Source of the DNA: a virus
Strand: one strand, 5' to 3'
Virus record (IMG/VR): IMGVR_UViG_3300030019_000054
Location: 1-48,397 of that record
DNA: 48,397 nt
The notes beneath the pieces are model-generated. The model searched no databases, was not told where the DNA came from, and saw only the letters and a program-made list of their open reading frames with translations. Positions 547-48,033 of the stretch are shown piece by piece (the first letter of the stretch is position 1; every line of letters begins with the position of its first letter). A program made the position numbers and the translations under genes.

Positions 547-1014
547 ATGAGTAAAAAGCAACAAGTAAAAGTCGGAACCTTCCTTTTAGAGCAGGAGGAC
601 GCAACGAGTAAGATTAAGGTCACGCACGAATCCGACCATTTCAGTTTCCGCATCTGGATTCCGCAGGTGAAGGAATTCTTTAAGGTCTGGACTGAAAAGG
701 AACACGAGAAAGCTTACGAAATGATTTTCGGGTGCATCATGCTATTCGCCAACTTCTCGCTCACCAACGCCATCTATTTCTCGGCTTGGGTTAAATGGCA
801 CAATGAGTTCCTTGAACAGATGAGGCAAGAAGTGAAGGAAGCTACCGATGAGGAGCATGACGCAGCATTGGCGGAGGTAAAGGATGAGTACGAAATGGCG
901 GAAAAGGCCAGCACCACTCTTACCCCTACAGAATCGGTCGAACCAGTCTTAGACAGCGAAGGCTTCATCGTGGACAACGTAACCTATAAAACCGCACGAA
1001 ACACTATTGATTGA
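547..1014 (+). CDS. hypothetical protein with one hydrophobic segment
   Basis: 155 aa. The middle (about residues 58-82) is hydrophobic and could be a membrane or buried helix. The remainder is charged and helical, with many Glu and Lys. A leader rich in A precedes the ATG. A one-mismatch copy of the genome-wide repeat lies at 915-924. The 3' end overlaps the next gene by 8 nt, suggesting translational coupling. Family and function unknown. Confidence 0.75.
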   Translation: MSKKQQVKVGTFLLEQEDATSKIKVTHESDHFSFRIWIPQVKEFFKVWTEKEHEKAYEMIFGCIMLFANFSLTNAIYFSAWVKWHNEFLEQMRQEVKEATDEEHDAALAEVKDEYEMAEKASTTLTPTESVEPVLDSEGFIVDNVTYKTARNTID

Positions 1015-1240
1015 CCTCGCCTCTATCACACCCGAGCTTAACATTCCAGAATTCGAGCGTGCGCTTAAAATCGTATCGGACGAATCTGGGATGAGCAAGG
1101 AGGGATTAATAAGACTGTGTATCCTTAATGCGGGAATGGACGGACTGGTAATTGGCGGGTGTAAGGAAAACGGAACGGACTCGATTGAGTTTTTAAGGAA
1201 TGTATATCGGAAATTAGTATTAACAAATAAACAAAAGTAA
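1007..1240 (+). CDS. hypothetical protein, TTG start
   Basis: 77 aa if translation starts at the TTG at 1007, which overlaps the upstream stop as TTGATTGA. The first in-frame ATG is at 1091 and would give a 49-aa product. I prefer TTG because the upstream residues look coding and the overlap is typical of coupled phage genes. The sequence is helical and resembles a small DNA-binding or regulatory protein only in size. Confidence 0.6.
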   Translation: MIDLASITPELNIPEFERALKIVSDESGMSKEGLIRLCILNAGMDGLVIGGCKENGTDSIEFLRNVYRKLVLTNKQK

Positions 1241-1244
1241 AACA

Positions 1245-1649
1245 ATGAATTACGAATTTCAAGGAAAGGTAACAGTGTCCATTAATAAGGACAAGGAAAA
1301 AGATGGCAAGAGTTATACGTCTTGGCAGGCAGTGTTGGAAGAAGTTGGCGAGGAATATCCTCAGTCGATTGTCTTAGACTATTTCACCAGCAAGGACAAA
1401 ACCGTGCCTCAGCCGAAAGTAGGCGACATCATCAACGCTGGATATAACATCCGCGCAAAAGAATGGAATGGCAAATATTTCGGCGAGAACTCTGCATGGA
1501 AAACCGAAGTGATTACGGCTGGAGTCGCTCCCGAAGAAGCTGACGAAATGCCGCCAGCTGATGAACCGGAGGCTCCGGCTACCCCCGCTCTAAAGAAGAC
1601 TGGCAAAATTGACCCGAAAGCTGATACTTCAGACGATCTCCCTTTTTAA
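1245..1649 (+). CDS. DUF3127-like single-stranded DNA-binding protein
   Basis: 134 aa. The N-terminal 85 residues match the DUF3127 pattern: a short beta-rich OB-like fold with GKSYTSWQ, YPQSIVLDYF, VGDIINAGYNIRAKEWNGKYF and a trailing W. A Pro/Glu/Ala linker follows, then the acidic tip DTSDDLPF, which resembles the SSB tail (DDIPF) that recruits repair and replication partners. It probably coats ssDNA during replication and YqaJ-type recombination. It lies 5 bp after the previous gene, in the same operon. Confidence 0.7.
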   Translation: MNYEFQGKVTVSINKDKEKDGKSYTSWQAVLEEVGEEYPQSIVLDYFTSKDKTVPQPKVGDIINAGYNIRAKEWNGKYFGENSAWKTEVITAGVAPEEADEMPPADEPEAPATPALKKTGKIDPKADTSDDLPF

Positions 1650-1750
1650 TAATTAATTAACATAGCTAACACATGAAACGAGTATTAGACTAAATAGGCA
1701 TCCCCGCCTTAGGGGAGCCTATCTTACCCCCGTTCGAAAAGTTCGACGGA

Positions 1751-2140
1751 ATGATGGCCGCGAAAATCAAGCGTGCAGGCTTCTCCACGGGCTACGTTGC
1801 TGTCAGATGGAATCCACTCACTCTTGCCCCTGATTCTGTATTCAATCCAGACGTATGCTTGGGTGGAATAAGCGAGATTCTGGAGTTGTACAAGAATCCG
1901 GTAGTTGCCGAGAAGGTGGATTCCGATGACGTTAAGAAATCCGACGCCCCTGAACCTTCCGCTTACGACTTAATCACGATTGCCGTAATCAAGAAGGAGC
2001 TTATCGACAAGTTCGAAGTGGTCGCCACTAAGCTGAACGGAAAGAACAAGGCCGAGCTTTACGAGCTTCTGATGGGTTTCCGTGCTGAGGCTTCCGGGGA
2101 GTTAGTGGACGAAGATGGCAAGAGCTTGGAGGAATCCTAA
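1751..2140 (+). CDS. hypothetical protein; possible 5' extension interrupted by TAA
   Basis: 129 aa from ATG 1751. An in-frame ATG at 1673 reads MKRVLD, then TAA (1691-1693), then 19 coding-looking codons that include IGIPALGEPILPPFEKFDG and run straight into this frame. The gene may have lost its original start by a nonsense mutation, or 1673-1693 is a leader peptide. The C-terminal region (KKELIDKF, NGKNKAELYELLM) resembles a helical SAP/HeH-like DNA-binding motif. An exact CACTCTTGCC copy is at 1819. Confidence 0.65.
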   Translation: MMAAKIKRAGFSTGYVAVRWNPLTLAPDSVFNPDVCLGGISEILELYKNPVVAEKVDSDDVKKSDAPEPSAYDLITIAVIKKELIDKFEVVATKLNGKNKAELYELLMGFRAEASGELVDEDGKSLEES

Positions 2141-2158
2141 AACTTCTTGGCAAAAAGT

Positions 2159-2189
2159 TTTACAGTATAGGTTTGGTTTGTTATATTTG
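2159..2189 (+). promoter_or_regulatory. promoter of the tRNA/ncRNA island
   Basis: TATATTTG (2182-2189) is preceded, 19 bp upstream, by TTTA at 2159-2162 inside AAAAGTTTTACAG. That matches the extended phage promoter family (AAAGTTTTGCA...) with A for G in the -33 box. It would start a transcript near 2195 that contains no protein gene before 2897. Confidence 0.5.
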
Positions 2190-2213
2190 TGGACTTCTTT
2201 CATTTTTAGATCT

Positions 2214-2322: not shown

Positions 2323-2393
2323 AGCGAATTGGTGTAATGGTAGCATGTGGGCCTCATAAGCCTTCGATTCTGATTCGACTTCGGAATTCGCAA
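2323..2393 (+). tRNA. tRNA with CAU anticodon (Met/fMet or Ile2)
   Basis: The fold has acceptor 2324-2329 with 2386-2391, a 4-bp D stem, anticodon CAT at 2355-2357 in a 7-nt loop, and a good T arm with loop TTCGACT. The outermost pair is A-A, a mismatch at position 1-72 as in initiator tRNAs, although the boundary is uncertain. The anticodon stem has one T-T mismatch. No CCA is encoded. Confidence 0.7.
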
Positions 2394-2403
2394 CTAATAA
2401 ACC

Positions 2404-2573: not shown

Positions 2574-2664
2574 TTAGCAGTCTGGACGCAGGCGACGTAA
2601 TCCAAGAAGCGCTTTCGTTAATAGCGAGGTAATCCTTTTTCCGAACCGTAGTTGGCGGGTCGTT

Positions 2665-2692: not shown

Positions 2693-2695
2693 TAT

Positions 2696-2782: not shown

Positions 2783-2786
2783 CAAT

Positions 2787-2871: not shown

Positions 2872-2896
2872 CTAATTTACTTAACAATATAGAATT

Positions 2897-4206: not shown

Positions 4207-5755
4207 ATTTCGCAGCCGCCTCTCGTACCGCATTAGTCGGATTGTCGCCGCCGCCGTCACTCTTGCCATTTCCCGATGCGGGTTCTGGCTTATTCGCTCC
4301 AGCTACCTTGGCCTCATCTTCCATCTTCTTATCCTGCTCCTCAACATATTTGGCATTCTCGGTATTCGTACCCAGTGGATTCCGTTCCCGGGCCGTCTGA
4401 CCTGAAAGCGAACCAGCCACGATGGATGTATTAATCTGATTGATAAGTTCCGTAACATTCTGATGCACGTATGGCTCAATTTGTCCGCGAACGTCCAACG
4501 CCTCGAATTCGGCAGTACGTGACGCTTCCATTCCGTAGCCCCACTTGAATATTCCAACCAAGTCGTCGACAAACATATTCCACTCCTTACTTTCTTCCAT
4601 AGCCTTTTCGACCGCAGGGGAATAGAGCAGTTTGATTGCAACTCCGGGCAAATCCCCTGATTTTACCTCTGGGGGCAGGACGGTGAAAGATCCGGTAAAG
4701 ATATTCTGCAACAGTATCTTGAGTTGGAGTTCAAAGCTCGCGCTTGCGTCCGCCCGTTCCAAAAACTTGGCCTCCGAATCCTTATCCCCTGTAATCACGG
4801 TAGGAGTACCAGTTGAATCATGCTCCAGTCCAACCTCATCGCCCTTGACAAACAGGATTCTGAAAGCGTAAGCCTTGTTATTTTCGGAAAGGTTCGAAAC
4901 GGCGAGTTCGTATTTGTCAATGCAGTCTTGAACGAGCGACCATGCCGCCCCTATTTTGCTGCGCTTATACGCCACGGGAACGCCATTTGGGCAGTTATGG
5001 CGATTACGTGAGATAAGCTCCCATCCATCAGAACCAATTATGCGTTTCACCTTTGTTCCGAACGAGTTTGTCCGCTCGTAAGTGGAAAGAAAAGTATCGT
5101 CCCATACGTCCAGATATTCGGCTATTGTCTGCTCTTTTCCGTTCTCAACCTTATAGGTACGATAAGAGCGACCGAACTCTTTCAACTTGCCTGTCAAATT
5201 GTCATAGTGCGGATACAGAACTTCTCCGTTCATGTAGCCCATAGTCTTTACGCCGAACTTACCATTGCTGACATATCCCGCAATGGCGCAGTCGCCCGTA
5301 ATCTTTTCAGACTTGGCGCATTCAAAGAATGCTTCCTCCATGTTCTTTTTCAGCCATCCCTGCTTGAACTCTGACATAATATCCTCCTGCTCACGCGTAG
5401 GTTTGGGGGAGGAGTTAAGGAAGTTGATCGGATTGCCGCAAAGGTGAGTCAGTTGCTTCGTTACGATGACCGCTTGGAATGGGAAGGCGCAACGCTCAAC
5501 ATAATGGATATAGGTGCGTTTCTTTTCGTCAGTCTTTAAACGGTCGGCAAGATAATGTCTGTCCCAAATCTTGTGTCCATTCGGGTCATACTCCTGCATG
5601 AAATTGGCCTGCGTGACGACTTGGTACATCAAATTCGGAGACTGAACGGTAGTCATGGAACCGTCCGTTGTGTAGAAGCCTCCCCAGTTAGTGAAGACCG
5701 TATCGGGCATGATGCGCTTGAACGGCTCTTTAAGTAAAATTGATTTCGGTTCCAT
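4205..5755 (-). CDS. portal protein (SPP1 gp6-like)
   Basis: 516 aa, the usual length for an SPP1 gp6-type portal, the dodecameric ring through which DNA enters the head. The N-terminal half (YVERCAFPFQAVIVTKQLTHLCGNP, a run abbreviated by its key residues Y-C-P-P) and the central region with DKYELAVSNLSENN fit the portal clip and stem. The C-terminus is a disordered Gly/Asn/Asp/Glu tail. It sits downstream of the large terminase on the same strand, 95 bp away. An exact CACTCTTGCC copy (4258-4267) lies antisense in the C-terminal codons. Confidence 0.88.
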   Translation of the reverse strand: MEPKSILLKEPFKRIMPDTVFTNWGGFYTTDGSMTTVQSPNLMYQVVTQANFMQEYDPNGHKIWDRHYLADRLKTDEKKRTYIHYVERCAFPFQAVIVTKQLTHLCGNPINFLNSSPKPTREQEDIMSEFKQGWLKKNMEEAFFECAKSEKITGDCAIAGYVSNGKFGVKTMGYMNGEVLYPHYDNLTGKLKEFGRSYRTYKVENGKEQTIAEYLDVWDDTFLSTYERTNSFGTKVKRIIGSDGWELISRNRHNCPNGVPVAYKRSKIGAAWSLVQDCIDKYELAVSNLSENNKAYAFRILFVKGDEVGLEHDSTGTPTVITGDKDSEAKFLERADASASFELQLKILLQNIFTGSFTVLPPEVKSGDLPGVAIKLLYSPAVEKAMEESKEWNMFVDDLVGIFKWGYGMEASRTAEFEALDVRGQIEPYVHQNVTELINQINTSIVAGSLSGQTARERNPLGTNTENAKYVEEQDKKMEDEAKVAGANKPEPASGNGKSDGGGDNPTNAVREAAAK

Positions 5756-5850
5756 ATATTGTTTTGGTTAAATTGGTTATATCGTTTAGTTAAAACTTGT
5801 CCACAGATTTTTGCGCTTTACCCACCCATTCTTGCCCTCTTTTCTTCGCA

Positions 5851-7666: not shown

Positions 7667-8362
7667 ATGCCGTTACAAGAAAAAATCTTTACCGCATTAA
7701 AAGCTCAGATGACGGAAAACGGAAAGAAGGTAACTTCAATCTCAGACCGTACACTGAATGCAGAAGCGCTTCGATTAAGTAAACAAATTACCGAGGAAGC
7801 CAACATCGAATCGGGCATTGTTGATGCCGTAGTCGTATTAAAAGAGTTCGAAGGAAACATGGGTGCAGTTGCCGCAGAAGCCGCAAGGCTGGCTAAGGTA
7901 GCTCCTACCGTAGTAGTTCCACCCGTAGCTCCCCCAGTAACACCGCCCGTAACCCCCCCCGCTGATGTGGAGCCGGAATGGGCAAAGAAAATCAGGGAAC
8001 GGTTCGAAGCTCAGGAAGCAAAGGAATCTCAGGAAAAGAAAGCGGCTGACGGAAAGGTAAAACTCACCGAAGTGGCAAAAATCCTGAAAGAAAAAGGTGC
8101 AGTCCATGAAAAGGTACTTGCCAACACTCTTGCCCTTCACCAATTCGACGAAGCCATGACCGCCACTCAAATCGCAGATCAAGCCCTACCCTTATATAAT
8201 AAGGAGTACAAGGAAATCTTCGGAGACGGTTCCGCCCCAAAATTCCCATCCACGATGAGCGGAGAAGGAAAAAAAGAACAACAGGCTGCTGCACAAAAAC
8301 AGCTTGACAAGACCAGAGAAAAACTCGGGCTACCCAAGCCGAAAGAAACGGCAACGACTTAA
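7667..8362 (+). CDS. putative head scaffolding protein
   Basis: 231 aa, highly charged and helical, with a Pro/Val-rich hinge (VAPPVTPPVTPP, about residues 86-98). The C-terminus is rich in Lys, Gln and Glu. It lies just upstream of the head-fibre-like and major capsid genes, the usual place of a scaffold that guides prohead assembly. Assignment rests on position and composition, not on a family match. An exact repeat copy is at 8125. Confidence 0.6.
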   Translation: MPLQEKIFTALKAQMTENGKKVTSISDRTLNAEALRLSKQITEEANIESGIVDAVVVLKEFEGNMGAVAAEAARLAKVAPTVVVPPVAPPVTPPVTPPADVEPEWAKKIRERFEAQEAKESQEKKAADGKVKLTEVAKILKEKGAVHEKVLANTLALHQFDEAMTATQIADQALPLYNKEYKEIFGDGSAPKFPSTMSGEGKKEQQAAAQKQLDKTREKLGLPKPKETATT

Positions 8363-11881: not shown

Positions 11882-11918
11882 CACCACTCTTACCCCTAAC
11901 CTTACTGGAGAAGCTGCA

Positions 11919-12371: not shown

Positions 12372-12374
12372 CCG

Positions 12375-14540: not shown

Positions 14541-15068
14541 ATGACCACCCCAAGAAAGCAACCATCGGCAAAAGACGAGCAGGAACTTTTAGACATCAAC
14601 GAAGACAGATCCACTCTTGCCAAGATCCTGAACAAATCCTACAAGATTAAATACCTGAAACCTTACACGACCGAAAAGGTCACACGCATTCTGGTCGAAG
14701 CAAGGGTCGCCATATCGGACGACATGACCGAAATGGAGGCGCTTAAAGCCATGGAGGAACGGTCAAGGTCTATTCATAAGTGCGTGTCCTACATAATCCT
14801 CAACAGCGCCTTTAAAATATGGTTGTTGCACGGCATATTGTGGCGATACTTCTACTTCATCAAGGAATATGATTACAAGGATTTGATGGAAGTGGTCGAA
14901 ACAGGTAAAAAAAAAATTCCGCTGCTGGAGTTCTTGGCAGTTACGGTATCCTTGGAGACGATGAAGGAGACGAAGATGATGATGACCAGAAGGGAAGCCA
15001 AGCCATTCCTTCAAGAACTTTTCAAGGAATACGGGCAAGCTTCGGAGAAAAGAACGGATGGGCTTTAA
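14541..15068 (+). CDS. tail assembly chaperone, short form (G-like)
   Basis: 175 aa in frame 0. It lies between the major tail and tape measure genes, where the G/GT chaperone pair is found in siphoviruses. At 14907-14916 an A10 run (codons AAA AAA AAA ATT) offers a slip site. A -1 shift leads into a frame that stays open to 15400. The short form alone ends at TAA 15066-15068. An exact repeat copy is at 14612. Confidence 0.75.
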   Translation: MTTPRKQPSAKDEQELLDINEDRSTLAKILNKSYKIKYLKPYTTEKVTRILVEARVAISDDMTEMEALKAMEERSRSIHKCVSYIILNSAFKIWLLHGILWRYFYFIKEYDYKDLMEVVETGKKKIPLLEFLAVTVSLETMKETKMMMTRREAKPFLQELFKEYGQASEKRTDGL

Positions 15069-20364: not shown

Positions 20365-20374
20365 CACTCTTGCC
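20365..20374 (+). repeat. intergenic copy of CACTCTTGCC
   Basis: Exact copy between the distal tail gene stop and the tail fibre ATG. Being noncoding, it shows that the motif is kept as DNA or RNA and not for a peptide. Confidence 0.9.
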
Positions 20375-30848: not shown

Positions 30849-30858
30849 GGCAAGAGTG
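30849..30858 (-). repeat. intergenic copy of CACTCTTGCC at the polarity switch
   Basis: Exact copy, - orientation, in the convergence gap. It is the first of the mainly - oriented right-arm copies. Confidence 0.9.
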
Positions 30859-35252: not shown

Positions 35253-35474
35253 TTAATTAATACAGTTTCCGTCAGGCAGCTCGATGGTGTAATACGTAGA
35301 AATGTACCATTCTGAGGCGTCAAATCCAACTCCGCCAGCTTCTACCTTATACATTCCATCGGTTAGATGAGCAATAATGCGTCCATCGTGAAAGGGTTCC
35401 CACTGCGAGGACGCAATCAATTTACAGCCCTTCGGATACTTATGGGCAAGAGTGGTGAATGATTTGTCGTTCAT
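35253..35474 (-). CDS. hypothetical protein
   Basis: 73 aa, beta-rich, ending ELPDGNCIN. The first gene after the 35524-35555 promoter. The exact repeat copy (35445-35454) encodes TTLAH near the start. Function unknown. Confidence 0.7.
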   Translation of the reverse strand: MNDKSFTTLAHKYPKGCKLIASSQWEPFHDGRIIAHLTDGMYKVEAGGVGFDASEWYISTYYTIELPDGNCIN

Positions 35475-35833: not shown

Positions 35834-36958
35834 CTACAGGAACCAGCTAACAATATTCGAAGTTCTTCTGACTGCCGGACAAGATATATATCCCATGGTC
35901 GTTTCAATATTTTTATGCCCAAGAAACTTTGCAATCGAGCGAATGTCGTATTCGAAGCTCAAATATACGTTAACCGCGAATGTGTGACGACACGAATGGC
36001 TTCTTACAAACTTCCAGCGTGGGCCACTTTCTGTAACGCCTCCATGTACGACCGTAGATTCGGCTACGATTCCAGCACGCTCAGCCAAAATAGGCAGAAT
36101 CCGATTCATTTGCTGGTGAGTGGGAGATATAATTTTCTTCTCCAATAGTCCAATAACGCAGGGCTTAAGCGGAATTTGCGAAAGTGTGTCAGTTTTTTTC
36201 GACACGTATTGGATATGTTTAACCTCGTCACGGCTCCCGTCAGCATTCTCGTATTCAACCGAAACGATATTGGCAGACTTTAGCTGCGAATAATCCGAGA
36301 AACGTGCGCCAACGAAAAATCCTATAAGCGCTAACGTTTTAACCGCTTCTTCTAAATCGTTTTCCGTCTTAACCGATACAAACGCCTCCACTTCCGACTT
36401 AGTTAAGTAAACACCGACTGATGTGCCTACTTTTCCTCGAAGGATCTTCTCGTATTCCAAAGCTGGAAATGTAAATCCGTCACGCCTTGCCTTGTCGAGT
36501 GCAACCTTTAGACCAGTCATGTACGCCCTGATGGTATTATCCGAATATTCTTCTGCGATCAAGATTTCCTTGTACTCCTCAATAAACAAATCGGTCAGAT
36601 CATCCCAGTCGGTTGATTTGTCGATATACGCCGCAAAATTGCGTAGTTTAGCGTCCCTTTTCGCCGCACCCGTAAAGTGAGCCAAAGGGGAGGGCAAGAG
36701 TTGTGATTCCACTTCGTCTGGAAATACGATTTGAAACGGGTCAATTCCGTCAAGCTCTGCCAAGTATAGTGCCTTCGTTATGTCAGCGTTAAACTTTGCC
36801 AATGTAGCATTAAGCAATGCAGACGGGTTTGCCAAGTCTTCCGTAGTTGCGGGAATCTTGGTAAGTTTCGTGCGGTACTCCTTAGAGTTGCGGAAAAACT
36901 TTATTTGCAGTCGGCCTTTGACCGAACAGAAAGAGGTTGAATATGCTTTGGTTTTCAT
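35834..36958 (-). CDS. int: tyrosine recombinase (integrase)
   Basis: 374 aa. Core-binding SAM-like domain at about 100-175, then the catalytic domain with R219 (GARFSD), K254/255 (SKKT), H321-R324 (HSCRH), H348 (LGHKN) and Y357 (MGYI). All active residues are kept. It would integrate or excise the genome, or resolve multimers. An attP could be the repeat cluster at 30.7-31.05 kb or the flanks here. The one-mismatch repeat is at 36693. Confidence 0.92.
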   Translation of the reverse strand: MKTKAYSTSFCSVKGRLQIKFFRNSKEYRTKLTKIPATTEDLANPSALLNATLAKFNADITKALYLAELDGIDPFQIVFPDEVESQLLPSPLAHFTGAAKRDAKLRNFAAYIDKSTDWDDLTDLFIEEYKEILIAEEYSDNTIRAYMTGLKVALDKARRDGFTFPALEYEKILRGKVGTSVGVYLTKSEVEAFVSVKTENDLEEAVKTLALIGFFVGARFSDYSQLKSANIVSVEYENADGSRDEVKHIQYVSKKTDTLSQIPLKPCVIGLLEKKIISPTHQQMNRILPILAERAGIVAESTVVHGGVTESGPRWKFVRSHSCRHTFAVNVYLSFEYDIRSIAKFLGHKNIETTMGYISCPAVRRTSNIVSWFL

Positions 36959-37341: not shown

Positions 37342-37809
37342 TTAATTTCTTATTTTTTCCCAACTCACCGATTGGGTGGTTATGCCTTTGAGATTATTTA
37401 GGACGAGTTGGGGCGAGATACCGCCAGTTCCGGTGTTAATAATCGACTTAAAATCTTCAAAATCGTCACAAAAAAACCCGCGCTTAGGAACTGAAAGGAG
37501 CCATTTAGCCTGCCCTGAAATATGTGACGTAACGTGGTCAGTACCAGCGTGTTTCATTTCGATTCCCCATAATTCTCCGCCATTTACTAACAGTAAATCA
37601 CTGATATTGGGCTGTAATCCTAACGCAGTCTTAATACCTCCGTCACGCTCATTCATAGTTTCGGCAAAATATGCGACGAGTTGACCTCTGCGTTCTGGAA
37701 ACTGTTGTCCAAACCACGTCACGCACTTTGCCTGAAGCTTATGCTCAAGGTTGGCCGATTTGGCACGGAGCTTGGGACGCTCCTCAATCTGTATGTTCGG
37801 ATTTTTCAT
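37342..37809 (-). CDS. VRR-NUC domain nuclease
   Basis: 155 aa. Nuclease motifs: E22 (LEHKLQ), PNISDLLLV (D71), GIEMKH (E84, K86), and SGQAKWL (Q100). VRR-NUC enzymes in phages are stand-alone Holliday junction or flap nucleases. It overlaps the helicase gene by 26 nt, so both likely act together in recombination or replication. Confidence 0.88.
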   Translation of the reverse strand: MKNPNIQIEERPKLRAKSANLEHKLQAKCVTWFGQQFPERRGQLVAYFAETMNERDGGIKTALGLQPNISDLLLVNGGELWGIEMKHAGTDHVTSHISGQAKWLLSVPKRGFFCDDFEDFKSIINTGTGGISPQLVLNNLKGITTQSVSWEKIRN

Positions 37810-39370
37810 CTTTTATGTTTATCCAGCGTTTTGCCTTCTGTGACTTATACTGATCGCATAATTTTTGTGCGAAGAACCATTTGTAGCCAAGTCCACGCAT
37901 TATTTTTCTAAACTCAGAATCGTCTCTTGTACCTAAATAGACCATACGGAAAAACCAGTACTTATTAAATCCGTGCAACTCCTGATATGCCGAAAGTTGC
38001 TCGACCGTCATGTTCTTGAATTGGAACTTTCCATCAATGATTTCGGTCAACTCAATCTCTCGTAATTCCTTCTCTTTCAAGAAGATGAAACCACAATCAT
38101 CGAATGGACATATTTGGCTCATGTTCGGGATCGGGCGACCACAGCCGCTCTTGCCCTCTTTATCCTTTTTATCGTCGGGGCATATCTTCATCGGAACTAT
38201 TCCGCTTGAAATTCTGTCGTCGTGCCACAGTGAAAACCTTCGCCACTCCTCATACCTGCCAAAGCCATCGCGTCCAAAATTGGAGCCCATATCCAGAACC
38301 CGAAAGCATTCCTTTCCTTCTGAAACCCTTGAACCGCGCCCCATCATTTGAAGGTACTTGGTCAAGGATAGCGTCGCCAAGTTCAAGATAATCGTCTCTA
38401 TTTGAGGACAATCATATCCCGCCACAAGTATGCCAGCGTTGACCAATACCAAGAATTTACGACGGGCAAATTGGGCAAGAATATCAGTGCGCTTTCCCGT
38501 CAAGTGCTTATGCTCTTCAAGCAGGTCATAATTATCATCATCCTTGCTGTAACCGCTTACTAAGAACTTAGCGGATATTCCGGCAGCATTCAGCTCGGCG
38601 CAAGTAATTATTGCATGAGCTTGATTCGAACAGAAACATAAGGATAGGGTATTTGGGCAAATCTTATTATATTCATTTATCAATCCCTCGTATCTTTGCG
38701 GAGAGTTGAATGCTTTGAATAGCTGACCTGATTTATAATCACCTTCCTTTGCGTCTATTTCAACCTTGCTTAGGTCTGGAGCATCCAATGTAAAATATCT
38801 GGCAGGAACCAAATATCCCTGTTTTATAAGATTTTCAGTCCGTTCTCCCAGTACTATCGCTTCGTAATCCAGCCCTAACTGCCTCGACTTACCATTTCGT
38901 TTAGGGGTGGCCGTGAATGAAATACAGTACTTGTCCTTAAAAATACCGCTCTCATGTATAAAATCAAAGTCAGCGAAGTGCGCCTCGTCAATAATAAGCA
39001 GGTCAACCGATTTCAGGTATTCGAGAACCTCCGGCTTATCCATCCTTCTCCGCAACGTTTGAGCCATTGCGATAACGACTGGAGCGGTAGGGATTTTGCG
39101 ATATTTCGGACTTATATATTCCGCATGGATTCCTATTCTTGAAAGTGAACCCCCAGATTGAATTAAAAGTTCCGAACGGTTGGATAGGATTAGGATGCGT
39201 GAACCTTTAGCAGATGCTCGTCTAGCAATCTCAGAAAACACTACGGTCTTCCCAAATCCCGTCACGGCCTGTACAAGAACGTGTTTGTAGGAAAGTAAGG
39301 CTTCCGATATGTCATCGAGAAGCCTCACTTGGTAATCCCTTAGCGTCAATGTTACTATTCTATCAGCCAC
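37784..39370 (-). CDS. SF2 DEAD/DEAH helicase
   Basis: 528 aa. Motif I TGFGKT (37-42), II DEAH (128-131), III SFTATP (151-156), VI QMMGRGSR (341-348). A Cys-rich cluster near 399-430 (C-x-D-D, C-G-R-P, C-P-F-D-D-C) probably binds zinc. The helicase is of the type often paired with VRR-NUC in phages and may substitute for a replicative or recombination helicase. It overlaps the downstream nuclease gene and the upstream DnaA-like gene. Confidence 0.92.
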   Translation of the reverse strand: MADRIVTLTLRDYQVRLLDDISEALLSYKHVLVQAVTGFGKTVVFSEIARRASAKGSRILILSNRSELLIQSGGSLSRIGIHAEYISPKYRKIPTAPVVIAMAQTLRRRMDKPEVLEYLKSVDLLIIDEAHFADFDFIHESGIFKDKYCISFTATPKRNGKSRQLGLDYEAIVLGERTENLIKQGYLVPARYFTLDAPDLSKVEIDAKEGDYKSGQLFKAFNSPQRYEGLINEYNKICPNTLSLCFCSNQAHAIITCAELNAAGISAKFLVSGYSKDDDNYDLLEEHKHLTGKRTDILAQFARRKFLVLVNAGILVAGYDCPQIETIILNLATLSLTKYLQMMGRGSRVSEGKECFRVLDMGSNFGRDGFGRYEEWRRFSLWHDDRISSGIVPMKICPDDKKDKEGKSGCGRPIPNMSQICPFDDCGFIFLKEKELREIELTEIIDGKFQFKNMTVEQLSAYQELHGFNKYWFFRMVYLGTRDDSEFRKIMRGLGYKWFFAQKLCDQYKSQKAKRWINIKDEKSEHTD

Positions 39371-39639
39371 ACTCTTTGATAAATTTCCGCATCACGCGAA
39401 TACCGTTTAATCTTACTTCTCCCTTCCTCCGCCAGATACATTACAGTAGTTCGCCCTCCTATCAGCGCAGATATTTCCTTTATAGACACATCCAACTTTA
39501 CCAGTAAAATGTAACACAGCATCTGTCTTGCCTGCGAAATTTCCGATTTCCTTGTCGGAGAGGCCAAATCCTCTGGCGTCAGGCCATATTCGGCACAGAC
39601 GCGCAGGAGGATTTCATTGGGGGTTAGGTGGTTATTCAT
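39355..39639 (-). CDS. orphan DnaA domain IV-like protein 2
   Basis: 94 aa. VCAEYGLTPEDLASPTRKSE followed by QARQMLCYIL and VSIKEISALIGGRTTVMYL reproduces the DnaA domain IV order (R-K-x-E-I-x-x-A-R-x, then I-x-x-x-x-G-R-x-x-x-V). Domains I-III are absent. It overlaps the helicase by 16 nt and the Rad50-like gene by 8 nt, so it is made with the replication genes and could target host origin machinery. Confidence 0.8.
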   Translation of the reverse strand: MNNHLTPNEILLRVCAEYGLTPEDLASPTRKSEISQARQMLCYILLVKLDVSIKEISALIGGRTTVMYLAEEGRSKIKRYSRDAEIYQRVWLIE

Positions 39640-41491
39640 TGGACGGAGCGGCTTTAGTTTTCTTGGTCGCTTTTACTTTCGGCTCTACCACCACATCTTC
39701 ACGGGCAATAGGTTTAACCATGCCACGAAATAGCAGTTCGCCATTTTCCACGACTACGGTATGGTCGTCAAGGTCATCAAGCTCCACCTTGTTCCAAGTT
39801 TGGTCAGTTATGAGTTGGATGTTCTTTTCCTCGCAAATACGTGACAGAATTCCTATACCCAAATCGGTCATCGGAACAGCGTCCAAGATAACCAGACGAA
39901 GCGCCTTCTTTTTAAGGTCAAGACGGGCGGCCTGTAAAAGTACGGCAACAACGCCACGTTGGGCGCCACTCAGTTCGAATAGGCGGATTGATTTGCCGAA
40001 AGTTTCCTTGAACAGATTCTTGTCGTAACTACCGTCGTACTCCATCCAAATATTTACGCGACCCGACTCTTCGACTGGAACCAATTTAAGCCCATCTACG
40101 CCCGTTTTAATGTTGGCGTATAGTCTGCGCAGTTCATCCACTTTCGACTCGTAGGCGTTCTTCAGTTCAATCCACGCACACCATTTGACGTAGCGTTCAT
40201 AGACGGAGTTCGTTTTGGTCGCCTTATTTATGATAAGGGCAAGAGTGGCGAGTTTTTCGTCAAGCTCCGCGGTGTCGTCGGGGGTGAAGGTTTTAAATCT
40301 CAGCGGCATGTCATTTAGGGCATGGTAAGATTCCAACAACTCAGCCCTGCTTTGAACGAGCGTGTCGTAATCTTTCGAGTAAACTTCAGGTACTTCAGGT
40401 ACGCCAACTTCGTTGATTTCAATTACGTTTGGCATTTGGGGAGCGACGGGATGCTTGAATGAAGCCTTATATTTATCAAAAAGAGAAATAACCTCATCAC
40501 ACATCTTGCCAATCTTTTCGGGGGCGATAAATAAATTACATTCTCCGATTGCGTTCGTGGCCTTATCTAAATAGTATTCTGCGTCTATTAGCTTTTGCGA
40601 GTCCGCATCAAACTGAGCCTTTGCCTTCCGGTATTCAGCCTTCTTATTCTCCGTAATCACCCGAATCTTCTCAACTACTTTACGCGCGGAATCTTTTATT
40701 TCCTGTAGCGCAGCCGTTCTTGCCGTTTGAGCTTTTTCCTTTTCGAGTTCAGTCTTGGATTCTGCGGTTTTAGCAAGGGAGCCGCGTTCTACTTCAAGGG
40801 CGGTGGATTGCGTTCGAAGGGCTTCAACGTCTACAAATTCCAAGGCGGCAATGTCCTCTTCGTTCCATCCCTCGGCCTCGAAATTTTCCCAGAAAGCACC
40901 TACCCCATCGCATAAAGCACGGGCAGCATCTCTCTGATTCTTACATTCCAGAATTTCCAATACACGGGCAGCAGCGCCAAGTTTGGCTAACTCTTCGGAA
41001 AATAGTTTTTCGATTAACTTGCGATGCTCGGTTGCGTTTTCCGTAAATAGGGATTTCGTATCGAAAATCAGATTGGTATTAATTTCCTTTACAAATTTAT
41101 CCGCAGTCCATTTCATGCCATCTGAGATATAATCGGTTGGCTTTCCGTTTTCATCCTTTGTATAAAGGAATGTTTCTACGGAGTTTTCGCCTTTACTAAC
41201 CCCTCTGGAAAATTCGCGCACCTTTACCCCCATCCAGATATTCACGTCTCCATCCATTAACTGAACTTCGGTAAGATACCCGCTTGCTAAGATGGATTTC
41301 GATTTGATAGCGTCGGTTCCAGCGATAGCGGTTTGGATAAGCTCAAGTGCGGTAGACTTTCCCTGCGACTCGGCTCCGATTACCTTAATCAATTTCTTGC
41401 TTAAAATATCAGGCGTCAATTCGACTACCTTAATATTCCTGTGATTCTCGGCATGGAAGCCGAGCAAACGTAGTTCTTTTTGTTCTTGCAT
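39632..41491 (-). CDS. Rad50/SbcC-like ATPase
   Basis: 619 aa. Walker A GAESQGKST (39-47), a long central helical region with coiled coil (about 190-400), signature LSGAQRG (about 502-508) and Walker B LVILDAVPM (about 529-537). The Glu that normally follows the Walker B Asp is Ala, which would reduce hydrolysis. Lys-rich tail. Exact repeat copy, sense, at 40238. Possible partner: the metallophosphoesterase at 32145. Confidence 0.8.
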   Translation of the reverse strand: MQEQKELRLLGFHAENHRNIKVVELTPDILSKKLIKVIGAESQGKSTALELIQTAIAGTDAIKSKSILASGYLTEVQLMDGDVNIWMGVKVREFSRGVSKGENSVETFLYTKDENGKPTDYISDGMKWTADKFVKEINTNLIFDTKSLFTENATEHRKLIEKLFSEELAKLGAAARVLEILECKNQRDAARALCDGVGAFWENFEAEGWNEEDIAALEFVDVEALRTQSTALEVERGSLAKTAESKTELEKEKAQTARTAALQEIKDSARKVVEKIRVITENKKAEYRKAKAQFDADSQKLIDAEYYLDKATNAIGECNLFIAPEKIGKMCDEVISLFDKYKASFKHPVAPQMPNVIEINEVGVPEVPEVYSKDYDTLVQSRAELLESYHALNDMPLRFKTFTPDDTAELDEKLATLALIINKATKTNSVYERYVKWCAWIELKNAYESKVDELRRLYANIKTGVDGLKLVPVEESGRVNIWMEYDGSYDKNLFKETFGKSIRLFELSGAQRGVVAVLLQAARLDLKKKALRLVILDAVPMTDLGIGILSRICEEKNIQLITDQTWNKVELDDLDDHTVVVENGELLFRGMVKPIAREDVVVEPKVKATKKTKAAPSNE

Positions 41492-41510
41492 TTTTTAATT
41501 ATTATTAATG

Positions 41511-42107
41511 TTAAATATATCTCCATATATACCCGCTACTCTTTCTTAGAATGCCACGGCAGCATTTTGCTATTGATTGGTGCAGAATCCCAGTAACGTG
41601 TTCCGCCTCTCTTGTCGACCCAAACTCTCTAATATAATCACCTCCAAGGTTAAACATAGCCACACCCTTAGATTTATTATGTAAGGCGCCACTCTTGCCA
41701 AAAAGATAACATTTTTCACCAATTTTAGACTCTGAAGCGTGAAGTATGGTAAGCGGGTTATTATTATTCTCCTTATACGTAACCCATCTTAAATTCGAAA
41801 CCATATTCTCGGTACGAACCGTATTTACGTGGTCGACTTGGGGCTTCATATCTGGATTCTCGATAAAAGCGATAGCGACTATTCGGTGGACGCCAGTCCT
41901 ATAGGGTTTTCCGTCAGAAAGAAGCCCTATAGCCTCATACCCACCCTTGTCTATTGATATTTTTAATAAAAACTCGGATGTTATTTTCGCATACCCCTTC
42001 TTTTTAGGCATAGACTTTAATCTTCCAAGATTACTAACCATATACAGCCCCTCATACCCCACCACGTCTCTCCACTCTTCGCCCTCCAAATCTTTAATCG
42101 TATCCAT
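41511..42107 (-). CDS. HNH homing endonuclease (NUMOD4-HNH)
   Basis: 198 aa from ATG 42107; the start at 42134 is possible but less likely. NUMOD4 (EEWRDVVGYEGLYMVSNLGR), HNH (VDHVNTVRTENMVSNLRWVT) and a NUMOD1-like end (TREAEHVTGILHQSIAKC). Free-standing, between the Rad50-like and YqaJ genes, hence a mobile passenger. The exact repeat copy at 41690 is antisense to the gene, an exception in this arm. Confidence 0.88.
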   Translation of the reverse strand: MDTIKDLEGEEWRDVVGYEGLYMVSNLGRLKSMPKKKGYAKITSEFLLKISIDKGGYEAIGLLSDGKPYRTGVHRIVAIAFIENPDMKPQVDHVNTVRTENMVSNLRWVTYKENNNNPLTILHASESKIGEKCYLFGKSGALHNKSKGVAMFNLGGDYIREFGSTREAEHVTGILHQSIAKCCRGILRKSSGYIWRYI

Positions 42108-42265
42108 AATAATTTTAAATGATAAACCCCGCAAAATTCGGAGGTCGAAGGCTCCTTATAATGCGAGGTTCAGAAAAAATTAGGTTCATCCGCTTCGACT
42201 CGGATTTTTAAAGGGTGCAATATAAGTATTTGTTTTCATAATTCAAAATTATTTAGCTGTAAGTT
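42108..42265. other. gap upstream of HNH gene
   Basis: Contains GGAG/CTCC (about 42140-42156) and a TTCGACTCGGATTTTTAAA stretch that may form a leftover hairpin and terminator. No gene and no convincing tRNA found, although a decayed T-arm-like segment is present. Confidence 0.3.
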
Positions 42266-42970
42266 TTAAGAATTAAGTATTGATTCTAATTTTTCCCCAG
42301 TCTCAAGCGCCTCATTCAGCGCAGCATTAGCTTCCATAATCCTTTCCATACACTCCTCGATTAACCCGTCAAAGTCCGAGCGGTCGTAAATGAACACCAC
42401 CCCGCGATTCTCGTCCATCAAGTCACCATTGTCGAATTCATCATCCTCGTCGTTTCCGTCATAGCAGACGTAGATTAGCTTGTTGCAGTGAGGGTTCCCG
42501 ATGAAGTGGCCGACAAATTGATAGCGATACTCTTCCACGACATCCGCCTTGGTCGAGCGCCTTATCATTTCAAACTTTCCCTGAGATGCGAGGCACTTGA
42601 CCTCAACGACCATATCCTCGTCGGCATAACCATCTGGGCTGTCACCGAATCCGTCCAACACGTCATCACAAAACTTGACACCTTCAGGAAAATCATCAAC
42701 AGAAGAGCAGTGTTTGATGGTGTATGGCAGGTTCTCCCGCATCCATTCGATTGCCAAAGGTTCGTTGATATGACCGAACTCGAAGTTTCGGTTCGAACTG
42801 TTGCGGATTGGACGTCCGGAGCGTCGTTCATAAAGCTTGTCGTATAAATAACCGATTGCCGTTTTACCCCAAAGAACACCCTTCGTTCCCTTTGTCATCA
42901 AATCAGATAGGCAAGATGAGGTAATTAGCCCCCTACGCCTTTCGTGCCATCGTCTTTCGCGTGCATCCAT
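42266..42970 (-). CDS. YqaJ-like recombinase exonuclease
   Basis: 234 aa. FGHINE (65-70), GDSPDG (109-114, D113) and EVKC (123-126) are the metal-binding motifs of YqaJ/lambda-exo enzymes, which resect dsDNA ends for annealing. It lies 2 bp after the 184-aa gene, its probable partner. Confidence 0.87.
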   Translation of the reverse strand: MDARERRWHERRRGLITSSCLSDLMTKGTKGVLWGKTAIGYLYDKLYERRSGRPIRNSSNRNFEFGHINEPLAIEWMRENLPYTIKHCSSVDDFPEGVKFCDDVLDGFGDSPDGYADEDMVVEVKCLASQGKFEMIRRSTKADVVEEYRYQFVGHFIGNPHCNKLIYVCYDGNDEDDEFDNGDLMDENRGVVFIYDRSDFDGLIEECMERIMEANAALNEALETGEKLESILNS

Positions 42971-42972: not shown

Positions 42973-43527
42973 TTATTCCGCCTTAACCTTTTTCAACTCC
43001 TCCAAAGCGGCTTCCGTGACCGAAAACTTGTCCATAACCATGGCAAGAGTGGATGTGGGTTTTCCGAGCCATGCCTTCCACTCCTCGAAGTTGGCTGAGG
43101 TGAGGTCGAGAATTTTCTTTGCGGCGGGTTTTGCCCCGGGCTGTTTTGGAAGGATTGGTGAGATGCGAAGTCCCACGGTCTTCTGTCCAATATCGGTCGG
43201 GTCTTTGCACTCCTCGGCACAAAGCGTCACGGTCAGGTTGTTGATGTGCTTCTCGATATACTCGGCATCCTCAAGCGTGGCGCCCATTTGACGGGCGAAC
43301 TTCCGAAGGCGTTTCTTATTGGTCGAGTTGAGCCATAACGGAAGGGTAAACCCTTTTATGACAGCTTCAAATCCGTCCTGCTTCTGTCCGCCAACCGATT
43401 CTTGATTCTTAAACCTTACGCACTCGATGACAACATCAATCGGTTTCATGTTGGGTAATACCTCACAACCGATATGGGTCAATTTTCCGCCTTCTCGGAT
43501 GTGGTGATAAACTCTTTCTTCTGACAT
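42973..43527 (-). CDS. putative recombination-associated protein
   Basis: 184 aa, directly upstream of the exonuclease. The C-terminal third (LDLTSANFEEWKAWLG, MDKFSVTEAALEEL) is helical and resembles proteins placed next to YqaJ in phages, but no family is certain. An annealing or ssDNA-binding partner is inferred from position. Exact repeat copy, sense, at 43042. Confidence 0.55.
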   Translation of the reverse strand: MSEERVYHHIREGGKLTHIGCEVLPNMKPIDVVIECVRFKNQESVGGQKQDGFEAVIKGFTLPLWLNSTNKKRLRKFARQMGATLEDAEYIEKHINNLTVTLCAEECKDPTDIGQKTVGLRISPILPKQPGAKPAAKKILDLTSANFEEWKAWLGKPTSTLAMVMDKFSVTEAALEELKKVKAE

Positions 43528-44931: not shown

Positions 44932-45237
44932 TTATTCCGTAGTGGCAAGAGTTGAGGCTTCCATCCACACCCCCGGAGTTACCTTCCCCTCCACCACAAA
45001 ATCGTTCGCATCCAAGAATCGTGTCAGATAAAAAAGAGGGAAGTGGAATTGTTCGGTTACCACGGAGCCATCCTCTATAAGAAAATACTCGTCCCTTGAT
45101 AACTGGATGGGCTTGCCATTGAAGCGGATGCGACCACTGTTGCCATCACGAAACTGAACGCCTGTTATAAACAGGAATTCACTTGCACCACCACCGTCTG
45201 AGGGGATGGGGACGAGTTGGATGGAGTTAGCGGGCAT
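44932..45237 (-). CDS. hypothetical protein
   Basis: 101 aa from ATG 45237 (MPANSIQLVPIPSDG), overlapping the upstream gene by 11 nt. Beta-rich. The one-mismatch repeat (44944) encodes its last residues. Function unknown. Confidence 0.65.
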   Translation of the reverse strand: MPANSIQLVPIPSDGGGASEFLFITGVQFRDGNSGRIRFNGKPIQLSRDEYFLIEDGSVVTEQFHFPLFYLTRFLDANDFVVEGKVTPGVWMEASTLATTE

Positions 45238-45926: not shown

Positions 45927-46240
45927 ACTATAATCCAATCTCCTCTACGTAGATGCCCGCAATTAGTCCATTTGCAAGTATCAAGCATCCCGCTGTCGCT
46001 TTTGATACGGAAGGCTAAATCCCCATAAGCCCGCTCGACTATTTCATACTTTTTACCAGCCGTGAAATAACTTTCGCATCCTTCTGGCGCAATCACATAC
46101 TTACAGGTTTTCTTAGTTGGCAAGAGTGTTGCCACTTCTTTCCCCTTTCCTACAAATCTCTTTACTAACAGATACACGGTCATCGCACAGCCCCAGATGA
46201 GGCCGAATAGGATGACGGATTCGTTGTGAGTTAATGCCAT
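45923..46240 (-). CDS. small membrane protein
   Basis: 105 aa with one transmembrane segment (about 8-27) and a basic cytoplasmic stretch after it. The C-terminal domain (YVIAPEGCESYFTAGKKYEI) is beta-rich. Preceded by the start-associated leader of this region. Exact repeat copy, sense, at 46119. Confidence 0.65.
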   Translation of the reverse strand: MALTHNESVILFGLIWGCAMTVYLLVKRFVGKGKEVATLLPTKKTCKYVIAPEGCESYFTAGKKYEIVERAYGDLAFRIKSDSGMLDTCKWTNCGHLRRGDWIIV

Positions 46241-46566: not shown

Positions 46567-46739
46567 TCCTGCTCTCTTTTATAGTAAATTCGCGTATATA
46601 GGCCGTCACTGTTTTCCCATGCTCTCGGATCTAAGATTCTGATTATCTCCCATCCCTTTGCGCCCATCGAATTCATCAACTCTATTTCGTAAGGGTCAAA
46701 CATTGCGTGGTCAATAACTCGGTATTCATATTTTTTCAT
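46563..46739 (-). CDS. DUF4177-like small protein
   Basis: 58 aa. MKKYEYRVIDH at the start, MGAKGWEIIRIL in the middle and YTRIYYKREQE at the end match the DUF4177 pattern (K-Y-E-Y-x-V, G-A-x-G-W-E, Y-Y-x-K-R). Function of the family is not established. Preceded by the start-associated leader and overlapping the next gene by 4 nt. Confidence 0.75.
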   Translation of the reverse strand: MKKYEYRVIDHAMFDPYEIELMNSMGAKGWEIIRILDPRAWENSDGLYTRIYYKREQE

Positions 46740-46750
46740 AATCGTTCATT

Positions 46751-47008
46751 TTAATCGTTAGTACTCTCGTTCAATTCATTTGCTACCACCTCAGGCCCAC
46801 CCTCCTCTTGCCCATCTTCCATTTCCCGGTAGTACCTTGCACCGCCGAAGTGTGTCCTGAAGTGCTGATCCATTCTAAGGAAGTCGCTAAGAGAAGCGAC
46901 GCCAAACTTCGACATTCCCCAAGACAGAACCACCTGCCCGCCATAGGTGGCAAGACGTTGGGCGGTCGTTCGGGAAATGCGGAGGTAGGTGCGGTCGGCT
47001 AATCGCAT
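46751..47008 (-). CDS. hypothetical protein
   Basis: 85 aa from ATG 47008 (MRLADRTYLRIS); a start at 47029 is possible. It overlaps the upstream gene by 10 nt. The C-terminal part is acidic. A short helix-turn-helix-like stretch (RTTAQRLATYGGQVV) may bind DNA. No family recognised. Confidence 0.55.
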   Translation of the reverse strand: MRLADRTYLRISRTTAQRLATYGGQVVLSWGMSKFGVASLSDFLRMDQHFRTHFGGARYYREMEDGQEEGGPEVVANELNESTND

Positions 47009-47268
47009 GACGATACCTCCTTTTCCCACTCGCTCAGCCCCGTCAGTGCGAACTGCTTGATTCCCCAGTCCACACGGATGCAGTTTTTGGCACGGGAGGG
47101 CTGGATGGTTGAGGACATGAAGAGCAAGCCCATTTGTTCAAGCGATTTTCTTACGGCAAACCAAGCTATTAAATCGGGGGCTAAAAGTAGTTGAATCTCT
47201 TCGGGGTGCGAGATAGGAAGACCTCGTAATTCTACTCCCGTGTCTGTGGTTATTGTTCTCATTTTCAT
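46999..47268 (-). CDS. hypothetical protein
   Basis: 89 aa, alpha/beta, starts MKMRTITTDTGVEL. Preceded by CGTTCGTTCGTTTTAATTG (on the + strand, 47269-47287), the start-associated leader. Function unknown. Confidence 0.6.
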   Translation of the reverse strand: MKMRTITTDTGVELRGLPISHPEEIQLLLAPDLIAWFAVRKSLEQMGLLFMSSTIQPSRAKNCIRVDWGIKQFALTGLSEWEKEVSSCD

Positions 47269-47280
47269 CGTTCGTTCGTT

Positions 47281-47706
47281 TTAATTGTTTGTTTGTACAA
47301 ATAAAGGCATAACTTCCTCAAGATCAAAACGCTTGCTCCCATCCTGATTATTTACAGCACACACGGTAATTTCGCTCCGAACTTTGGATATGATCCGTAT
47401 TACCGCGTCTTTCTCGTCGTCCCAGCTAAGCATACCAGCTCCAGCCAAAACGATTTCCTTCAAGTCTGCATCGTTCGTCCGTTCGGATCGCACTTTCATG
47501 TACAATTCAAAGAGGACATTCCAAACCACGTTTTTAAAGTCGCGGTCAAATTGGTCCGCGCTCCATCCATATACCTCCGTAAAATGCGGGCGAATGTAGT
47601 CAATAAAGTTTTTGCCCTTCGTATACTTTTTGGAACTATACTTCTTGAGAGTCCACCCCTTACAGAGCATAATCCAAATCTTTTCATTTCTTGATAGTTG
47701 TATCAT
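47281..47706 (-). CDS. hypothetical protein
   Basis: 141 aa, helical, basic N-terminus (KKYSSKKYTKGK). Contains YGWSADQFDRDFKNVVW. Preceded by the full start-associated leader. No family recognised. Confidence 0.65.
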   Translation of the reverse strand: MIQLSRNEKIWIMLCKGWTLKKYSSKKYTKGKNFIDYIRPHFTEVYGWSADQFDRDFKNVVWNVLFELYMKVRSERTNDADLKEIVLAGAGMLSWDDEKDAVIRIISKVRSEITVCAVNNQDGSKRFDLEEVMPLFVQTNN

Positions 47707-47766
47707 TGTTCGTTCGTTTATTAAGTTAGTGTTTACTCGTTCATTTCAATTTATAGTGGCAAGAGG

Positions 47767-48033
47767 TTAGTTGGTTCCGCCCTCCCAGACCACCCTATTC
47801 AGCTTCGGGCGCATCTCGTCAGGAGAATAAGTGTCAGCTCCGCAAATCGTATCCGATACGCACACGCCCTCCGAGTACTCGAATAAGGTTATATCTCCGT
47901 GCCTCGCGGCCTTTTCCAGTTCAAACGCTAGTTCCTTCGTTTCCTTGGACGCGTCGCACAACTCCTCGATAAATTTATTCAACGCTTCGATATCTAGGGC
48001 TGCGATGAAATTCTGGGCTTCGGTGGTGGTCAT
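47767..48033 (-). CDS. hypothetical acidic helical protein
   Basis: 88 aa, acidic, mostly helical: AALDIEALNKFIEEL, ETKELAFELEKAARHG. Preceded by the start-associated leader. A repeat variant with two changes is just past its stop (47758). Confidence 0.65.
   Translation of the reverse strand: MTTTEAQNFIAALDIEALNKFIEELCDASKETKELAFELEKAARHGDITLFEYSEGVCVSDTICGADTYSPDEMRPKLNRVVWEGGTN

Follow-up and report, generated by a model that had tools for sequence, protein, structure and literature searches.

A polar, genome-wide 10-bp repeat in a probable Bacteroidota phage, possibly a set of stoperator-like sites

Introduction

Chi and KOPS are 8 bp long and are read by the host. Genome-wide polar binding codes carried by phages themselves are already well documented for the stoperators of actinobacteriophages. 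Published stoperators comprise 20–30 asymmetric sites lying along transcription, with a motif that changes between subclusters (PMC6550527), and they lose function when reversed (PMC9283540). Here we analyze a 48.4-kb phage record (IMG/VR IMGVR_UViG_3300030019_000054, 48,397 nucleotides, the whole of which is called the window below), in which an earlier note had described a polar 10-bp repeat, CACTCTTGCC, and had suggested a protein-binding signal comparable to stoperators, KOPS, Chi or uptake sequences. No description of CACTCTTGCC was found in the literature searched.

Results

Motif enrichment and shape

CACTCTTGCC is the top over-represented 10-mer in the window, with 17 exact copies (9 on the + strand and 8 on the - strand; Table 1), or ~350 per Mb. 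Dinucleotide shuffling predicts 0.05 copies, with none of 100 shuffles approaching 17, and a third-order Markov model predicts 0.08. Synonymous-codon shuffling of the genes predicts 0.23 (maximum 2 in 300 shuffles) against 14 real copies, these being the ones inside the gene set used. The count of 17 first reported, with ~0.09 expected, is confirmed with 0.05–0.23 expected across the dinucleotide, Markov and codon nulls, and equal frequency in codon-preserving shuffles is not seen. The enrichment is non-random, and neither codons nor composition account for it. Near copies, put earlier at about a dozen, number 16 at one mismatch, giving 33 sites with at most one mismatch versus 2.2 expected; at a PWM threshold of ≥13 bits there are 33 sites in the window (1.8 expected) and 27 in the distant relative G412 (1.4 expected). 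Applied to Bxb1 and Trixie, the same k-mer over-representation statistic finds their known stoperators. It also picks up the E. coli Chi (GCTGGTGG) in prophage L308.

The 10-bp word stands as described, but the conserved signal reaches past it: with flanks the motif is asymmetric and spans ~13–15 bp (CAYCACTCTTGCC[C/A]T), position -3 being C in 13/17 and A in 4/17 exact sites, while G is absent at +1 and +2. Beyond ~15 bp there is little similarity among copies, as would not be expected of a recently duplicated element. The 17-bp stretch attributed to two copies is indeed shared by 19681 and 33182, although the latter is a one-mismatch rather than an exact copy. Many copies translate as T-L-A; the differing frames (TLA, LLP) from which a protein motif had been rejected, the gap copies at 20365 and 30849 and the two antisense copies (4258 and 41690) are all as first described.

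Table 1. Motif sites and related genes in the window. Exact sites are copies of CACTCTTGCC.
Feature	Position	Strand	Context
Exact site	1819..1828	+	sense, gene 1751-2140, TLA frame
Exact site	4258..4267	+	antisense, close to portal gene 3′ end
Exact site	8125..8134	+	sense, 7667-8362; kept in relative L015
Exact site	14612..14621	+	sense, 14541-15068
Exact site	15969..15978	+	sense, tape-measure gene
Exact site	19681..19690	+	codons 3-6 of 19674-20363, LLP frame
Exact site	20365..20374	+	gap between + genes
Exact site	24736..24745	-	sense, inverted secreted-protein gene 24283-24768
Exact site	25036..25045	+	sense, 24899-29914
Exact site	30849..30858	-	convergent gap separating arms
Exact site	31608..31617	-	sense, 31110-31784
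Exact site	33106..33115	-	sense, metallophosphoesterase-like gene 32145-33419
Exact site	35445..35454	-	sense, small ORF 35253-35474 (-)
Exact site	40238..40247	-	sense, SMC/AAA-like gene 39632-41491
Exact site	41690..41699	+	antisense, HNH endonuclease gene 41511-42134
Exact site	43042..43051	-	sense, 42973-43527
Exact site	46119..46128	-	sense, 45923-46240
Near-site CATTCTTGCC	5827..5836	+	portal/TerL gap; exact CACTCTTGCC in L015 despite diverged flanks
Near-site CACTCTTACC	11885..11894	+	gap after 11600-11881; CACTCTTGCC in L015
Near-site CACTCTTACC	915..924	+	PWM score 20.5, equal to several exact sites
Near-site AACTCTTGCC	36693..36702	-	PWM score 22.1; sense, integrase gene
Near-site AACTCTTGCC	44944..44953	-	PWM score 19.8; sense, 44932-45252
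Tyrosine integrase gene	35834..36958	-	temperate-like phage
Early module	37342..42970	-	common with G412; candidate readers
Phosphoesterase/exonuclease-like gene	32145..33419	-	58% identical in G412; not found in other compared relatives

Orientation and placement

The polarity claimed earlier is borne out as two opposed arms, with 8/9 exact sites on the + strand in the left arm and 7/8 on the - strand in the right. Arm polarity is followed by 20/22 strong versus 2/11 weak sites in the window (P = 7e-5). Exact sites are sense rather than antisense to genes at 13:2 in the window and 8:2 in G412, where codon nulls predict 1:1 (P = 0.005) and 1:4 (P = 5e-5), respectively. Arm polarity coincides with transcription direction, so that the two are confounded in an opposed-arm (KOPS-type) test. 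Site 24736 follows transcription against its arm; two exact sites, 4258 and the L015 counterpart of 5827, oppose local genes and follow the arm. The 4258 site lies ~50 bp beyond a terminator-like hairpin that follows + genes.

Spacing averages 2.8 kb, in keeping with the 2–3 kb first estimated, and is a little more regular than chance would give (P = 0.046 in the window and 0.094 in G412). Gene borders are ignored, with gap sites (2/17 in the window, 2/12 in G412) as frequent as coding density predicts, and no promoter was seen to carry a cluster of sites. Folding energy and accessibility of the RNA at the sites match those of control windows. The stoperators of RedRock have the same two-arm polarity, and 16/20 fall between genes or at gene edges.

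Conservation among related phages

The close relative L015 (81% DNA identity) retains the sites at 8125 and 8773 and carries full sites at near-sites of the window. In G412 (63 kb), which has at least 20 genes in common with the window at roughly 31–59% amino-acid identity, there are 12 copies of CAGTCTTGCC, one letter off CACTCTTGCC, where 0.07 are expected. L312 and L313, of the G412 clade, have 2 and 3 copies of CAGTCTTGCC, and the sites are kept at 79–94% DNA identity. The motif is thus phage-borne and evolving, with a clade-specific one-letter change. Since the same word recurs along the genome and a distant cousin has a one-letter variant, the motif is maintained by selection, and for the same reasons it probably serves as a target for a DNA-binding protein that the virus encodes. 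Less related Bacteroidota phages had no motif enrichment, and the TCTTGCC-rich loci among 80 helicase relatives yielded the full motif at no other locus. The nine TCTTGCC copies of L239 were set aside as motif copies; all are on one strand and resemble antisense Gly-Lys codons.

Host search and candidate readers

The host is probably a member of the Bacteroidota. CACTCTTGCC was not enriched in 395 Bacteroidota genomes (~1.5–7 Mb; maximum 24 copies per genome), as a host Chi or uptake sequence would be, though this sample may exclude the actual host; CAGTCTTGCC was likewise not enriched in 61. A TerL-based search found no host, since the nearest prophages in sampled Bacteroidota were just 28–33% identical. 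Most of what pair-pattern scans of genomes and viral contigs turned up was local or tandem repeats unrelated to the motif, a Planctomycetota hairpin repeat among them.

From the integrase alone we infer lysogeny. No immunity repressor was recognized in the window, no HTH protein common to the window and G412 was detectable, and no single reader candidate stood out. Early genes common to both phages encode mostly DNA-processing enzymes; products of the early module include a 155-aa nuclease-like protein (called VRR-NUC-like by eye), an SF2 helicase, an SMC/AAA-like ATPase and a YqaJ-like exonuclease. Phage PF672P1 has homologues of the genes for all four and is without the motif. Two small DnaA-like HTH proteins (39355-39639 and 35566-35832) were attractive as readers because DnaA boxes are asymmetric; they were rejected as they were not detected in G412. 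A tie between the motif and the phosphoesterase gene was also rejected, since a homologue (48%) occurs in Phocaeicola phage BV739P1, which is without the motif.

Discussion

Our leading explanation, to which we give a probability of about 0.38, is that the motif marks putative stoperator-like sites to which a protein encoded by the phage would bind. A sequence-specific DNA-binding protein encoded by the phage would recognize ~13–15 bp asymmetrically, at sites that occur once per 2–3 kb and point along each transcribed arm. Once bound, in a prophage or an early state, this protein would most likely halt elongating RNA polymerase in one orientation; the combined effect of many sites would be to shut down both arms, and relatives whose motif letters differ would be heteroimmune. 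Protein binding, the phage-encoded reader and the transcription block are all three what we infer from the pattern of sites. As for stoperators, many asymmetric 10–15 bp sites are spread over one phage genome, they are oriented along transcription (13:2 and 8:2) and their letters differ between related phages (CACTCTTGCC versus CAGTCTTGCC); a preference for short intergenic spaces or gene edges is not seen, placement being random with regard to gene borders. This placement weighs most heavily against the explanation, together with the lack of a recognizable repressor common to the two motif-bearing phages; the want of promoter clusters and the two exact sites facing against local genes also speak against it. 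The protein-binding reading proposed in the earlier note fits because the alternatives of codon usage, protein motifs, recent duplication and RNA hairpins are either ruled out or disfavored and the motif is conserved while drifting by one letter, whereas a host-wide signal, which that proposal also covered, is disfavored by the lack of enrichment in 395 genomes.

A close rival, which we regard as possible if somewhat doubtful, is a polar signal resembling Chi or KOPS and addressed to a recombination, replication or DNA-translocation machine that the phage encodes, in which the SF2 helicase, YqaJ exonuclease, SMC-like ATPase or phosphoesterase would read DNA one way and either protect the phage's own DNA or process it. 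It comes close because gene borders are ignored in both phages, no common repressor was found and most early genes common to the motif-bearing phages serve DNA processing; the slightly even spacing, the behavior of site 4258 and of the L015 counterpart of 5827, and the recovery of Chi in L308 by the k-mer method count on the same side, and two-arm polarity is also compatible with divergent replication. Against it, Chi and KOPS are host-read 8-bp words rather than ~13–15 bp motifs lacking enrichment in sampled hosts, PF672P1 has the enzymes and not the motif, 24736 goes with transcription, and the literature searched yielded no phage-encoded Chi system. The specific form of this idea, a phage-owned polar self-recognition code read by a phage helicase or nuclease, absent from the host and with letters drifting along with the reader, we consider rather unlikely.

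A signal read by an unsampled host lineage (host Chi, uptake sequence or transcription factor) is improbable: the host is not pinned down and sampled genomes hold no close prophage, but at most 24 copies per 1.5–7 Mb genome compare with ~350 per Mb in the phage, CAGTCTTGCC is not enriched either and less related Bacteroidota phages are without the motif. There is also little to recommend an RNA-level element in phage mRNAs (CACUCUUGCC), be it boxA-like or a target of an RNA-binding protein or small RNA; sense bias agrees with it, as does CTCTT, which we take to resemble boxA, but structural context is absent, exact copies also lie antisense and in the convergent gap, and the G412 form (GTCTT) spoils the boxA resemblance. 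Chance, a codon or protein-motif artefact, or recent duplication would suit the frequent T-L-A reading and is refuted by the codon shuffles (0.23), the varied frames, gap and antisense copies, the scant similarity past ~15 bp and the independent enrichment of the one-letter variant in G412.

The window and G412 would represent a second, apparently unrelated instance of a phage-carried polar code, in phages that probably infect Bacteroidota and whose clades differ by a single-letter change that can be traced. If the stoperator-like reading is true, elongation-blocking immunity would extend to another phylum; otherwise a phage-owned analogue of Chi or KOPS may be revealed. The two motif variants offer a ready-made specificity test for the reader protein, and a simple k-mer screen could uncover further cases.

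Among the analogues named earlier, stoperators match best on polarity, length, phage-specificity and clade-specific letters, though not on gene placement. DNA uptake sequences (Neisseria, Pasteurellaceae) are likewise dispersed 10–12 bp words, whereas the window motif is not enriched in sampled hosts and has strand polarity along transcription. KOPS (FtsK-orienting polar sequences) resemble it as a polar motif on opposed arms but are chromosomal and 8 bp long, and no FtsK-like reader was noticed among the phage genes. Chi (E. coli GCTGGTGG and others) is dispersed, polar and irrespective of genes, while the window motif is longer, not enriched in sampled hosts and different by phage clade. The stoperators of cluster A mycobacteriophages (L5, Bxb1, Trixie, RedRock) lie mainly in gaps or on gene edges, unlike the randomly placed sites of the window, which comes from another phage group with a probable Bacteroidota host and is without a recognized repressor; they are alike in having ~20–30 asymmetric ~13-bp sites with two-arm polarity along transcription, in being phage-specific with letters that shift between relatives, and in occurring often in integrase-bearing tailed phages.

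Enrichment and Anatomy of the Motif

The window carries 17 exact copies of the decamer CACTCTTGCC against 0.05 expected, bearing out the earlier note's claim of an excess beyond chance, and 33 copies with at most one mismatch against 2.2 expected. It is also the most over-represented 10-mer of the window (17 vs. 0.08 expected). Equal frequency in codon-preserving shuffles had been named as a possible refutation; the shuffles kept 0.23 copies compared with 14 real ones in the gene set used. When the flanks are aligned, the motif proves to be longer and asymmetric (roughly CAYCACTCTTGCC[C/A]T), with C (13/17) or A (4/17) at position -3 and no G at +1 or +2, and a PWM at ≥13 bits finds 33 sites vs. 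1.8 expected. Mismatches in near copies are limited in type (mostly A at 1, T at 3, G at 5 and A at 8), and the variant CAGTCTTGCC is absent from the window. We consider it almost certain that the signal is real and under selection.

Exact sites follow the two oppositely transcribed arms, lying on the + strand in eight of nine cases on the left and on the - strand in seven of eight on the right. This polarity is obeyed by 20 of the 22 strong sites (exact plus high-scoring) but by only 2 of 11 weak one-mismatch sites (Fisher P = 7e-5). Within genes, 13 exact sites are sense and 2 antisense, where codon composition predicts equal numbers (P = 0.005). Gene borders are neither preferred nor avoided, the frequency in gaps being that of chance. 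Spacing is slightly even (P = 0.046; 0.094 in the related phage G412).

Genome and Probable Host

The window, 48,397 bp, is an entire IMG/VR virus record and represents a tailed phage (Table). Its TerL and integrase relatives are Bacteroides phages (LoVEphage, 32% and 31%) and its helicase relatives are Parabacteroides and Cellulophaga phages, which point to Bacteroidota as the likely host phylum. The terminal repeats are possibly iterons, or what ended the assembly.

Table. Features of the window and motif sites of the L011/L015 fragment
Feature	Position	Strand	Details
Left arm, large		mostly +	Late genes: major head protein, tape measure, tail, M15 peptidase
Three phage tRNA genes	2323-2872		Met, Ser-GCT, Ser-TGA; between left-end genes and TerL/portal cassette
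Inverted portal/TerL cassette	4205-7494	-	
L011/L015 exact site	portal/TerL gap		Otherwise diverged; window has CATTCTTGCC
L011/L015 exact site	8125		Common to window
L011/L015 exact site	11885		Window has CACTCTTACC
Two neighboring genes inserted in tail region	23887-24768	opposite	Signal-peptide-like starts, DUF4402-like by eye; inverted gene contains a motif copy that reads in the gene's sense direction
Right arm		-	Early genes: phosphoesterase/exonuclease-like protein, tyrosine integrase, SF2 helicase, SMC/AAA-like ATPase, YqaJ-like exonuclease
Small orphan HTH protein	35566-35832		DnaA-like 'NRDRSTV' helix; weaker match
Small orphan HTH protein	39355-39639		Clear DnaA C-terminal (DnaA-box-binding) domain without ATPase; Bac_DnaA_C E = 1e-13
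Gene with C-terminus common to G412	42973-43527		
Tandem 12/24-bp repeats	48320-48397		GGCTGACCATGC / GGCTGACTCAGC; very end of record, where the arms diverge

Conservation and Range

A fragment of a closer relative (L011/L015, 81% DNA identity) spans window positions 4582-13038 and has three exact sites. A query with the SMC-like gene found a distant 63-kb cousin, G412 (L212, IMGVR_UViG_3300020045_004922), with at least 20 genes in common with the window (MCP 54%, portal 59%, TerL 51%, helicase 56%, YqaJ 54% and phosphoesterase 58% identity). It contains 12 copies of CAGTCTTGCC and one of CACTCTTGCC, and its top 10-mer is GGCAAGACTG (12 vs. 0.07 expected). Its sites are sense-biased too (8:2, where codons predict 1:4). 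L312 and L313, phages of the same clade, have 2 and 3 copies of the G412 form, and sites in this clade at 79-94% identity are retained or swapped for one-mismatch forms. With the window form in one clade and the variant in the other, the motif system is retained between clades with a one-letter shift.

No enrichment was found in LoVEphage, Dulem virus 40, PF672P1, a Riemerella phage, BV739P1 or phiSM, in TerL relatives at 32-46% identity (G414, G415, G416, G418, G419), or among 80 helicase relatives. Other repeated words were seen as well. The TerL relative G419 (L227-L230, IMGVR_UViG_3300028888_000122; about 62-70 kb) has AAAGTTAGTA eight times on one strand only, at promoter-like spacing. 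L300 has CATATCAATC dispersed six times over 11 kb on both strands (0.03 expected) and may be a further phage with a word of this kind. E. coli Chi GCTGGTGG, 12 times in 19 kb of the prophage contig L308, was an accidental positive control for the k-mer screen.

Mechanism and Candidate Reader

A stoperator-like mechanism is our tentative reading (probability about 0.38). Should the motif be read by a phage protein with homologues in both clades, the gene for this reader would be expected among the shared ones. Early genes common to the window and G412 encode the helicase, YqaJ, the SMC-like ATPase, a 155-aa nuclease-like protein, the integrase and the phosphoesterase; the C-terminus of 42973-43527 is shared too. 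The two DnaA-like HTH proteins were found in the window only, neither being detected in G412. By annotation, the Bxb1 repressor shares 45% identity with its L5 counterpart, and one might therefore have expected a conserved repressor to show up here. No HTH repressor shared by the window and G412 was detected, which favors a DNA-processing reader over a repressor of the classical stoperator type, although small diverged repressors could be missed. A phage-owned signal comparable to Chi or KOPS is a close rival, slightly less likely than the stoperator-like reading.

That the host reads the motif is improbable: CACTCTTGCC occurs 0-24 times per genome across 395 Bacteroidota genomes, whereas its density in the phage is about 350 per Mb, and CAGTCTTGCC is rare as well in 61 genomes. 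As far as sampled, the signal is phage-borne, though the genomes may not include the actual host. A Planctomycetota MAG, casp150-mb.69 (L035, L039, L047, L060, L074, L076, L107, L109), has many arrays with the hairpin GACGGGCACTCTTGCCCGTC; the decamer inside it is a coincidence. Action at the RNA level is slightly more improbable still, and local RNA folding around sites in the window is ordinary. Other mechanisms take the remaining probability.

Comparison With Stoperators

The k-mer statistic (corrected log10 P) reaches -27 in the window and -17 in G412, compared with -13.8, -20.9 and -5.3 in the known stoperator phages Trixie, Bxb1 and RedRock. Published stoperators comprise 20-30 asymmetric, transcription-aligned sites with letters specific to the subcluster (PMC6550527), and their function is lost on reversal (PMC9283540). 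The transcription-sense form of our motif, CTTGCCAT, is similar to the sense form of the cluster A stoperator (CTTGACAT in Trixie; L319-L321) in the same orientation, which may be coincidence. RedRock stoperators likewise point in opposite directions on the two arms; unlike the window sites, which are indifferent to gene borders, 16 of the 20 are found in gaps or at gene edges. Because of this placement and the lack of a recognized repressor, we do not assign the motif to the stoperator family; its likeness to stoperators lies in polarity, length, phage-specificity and drift.
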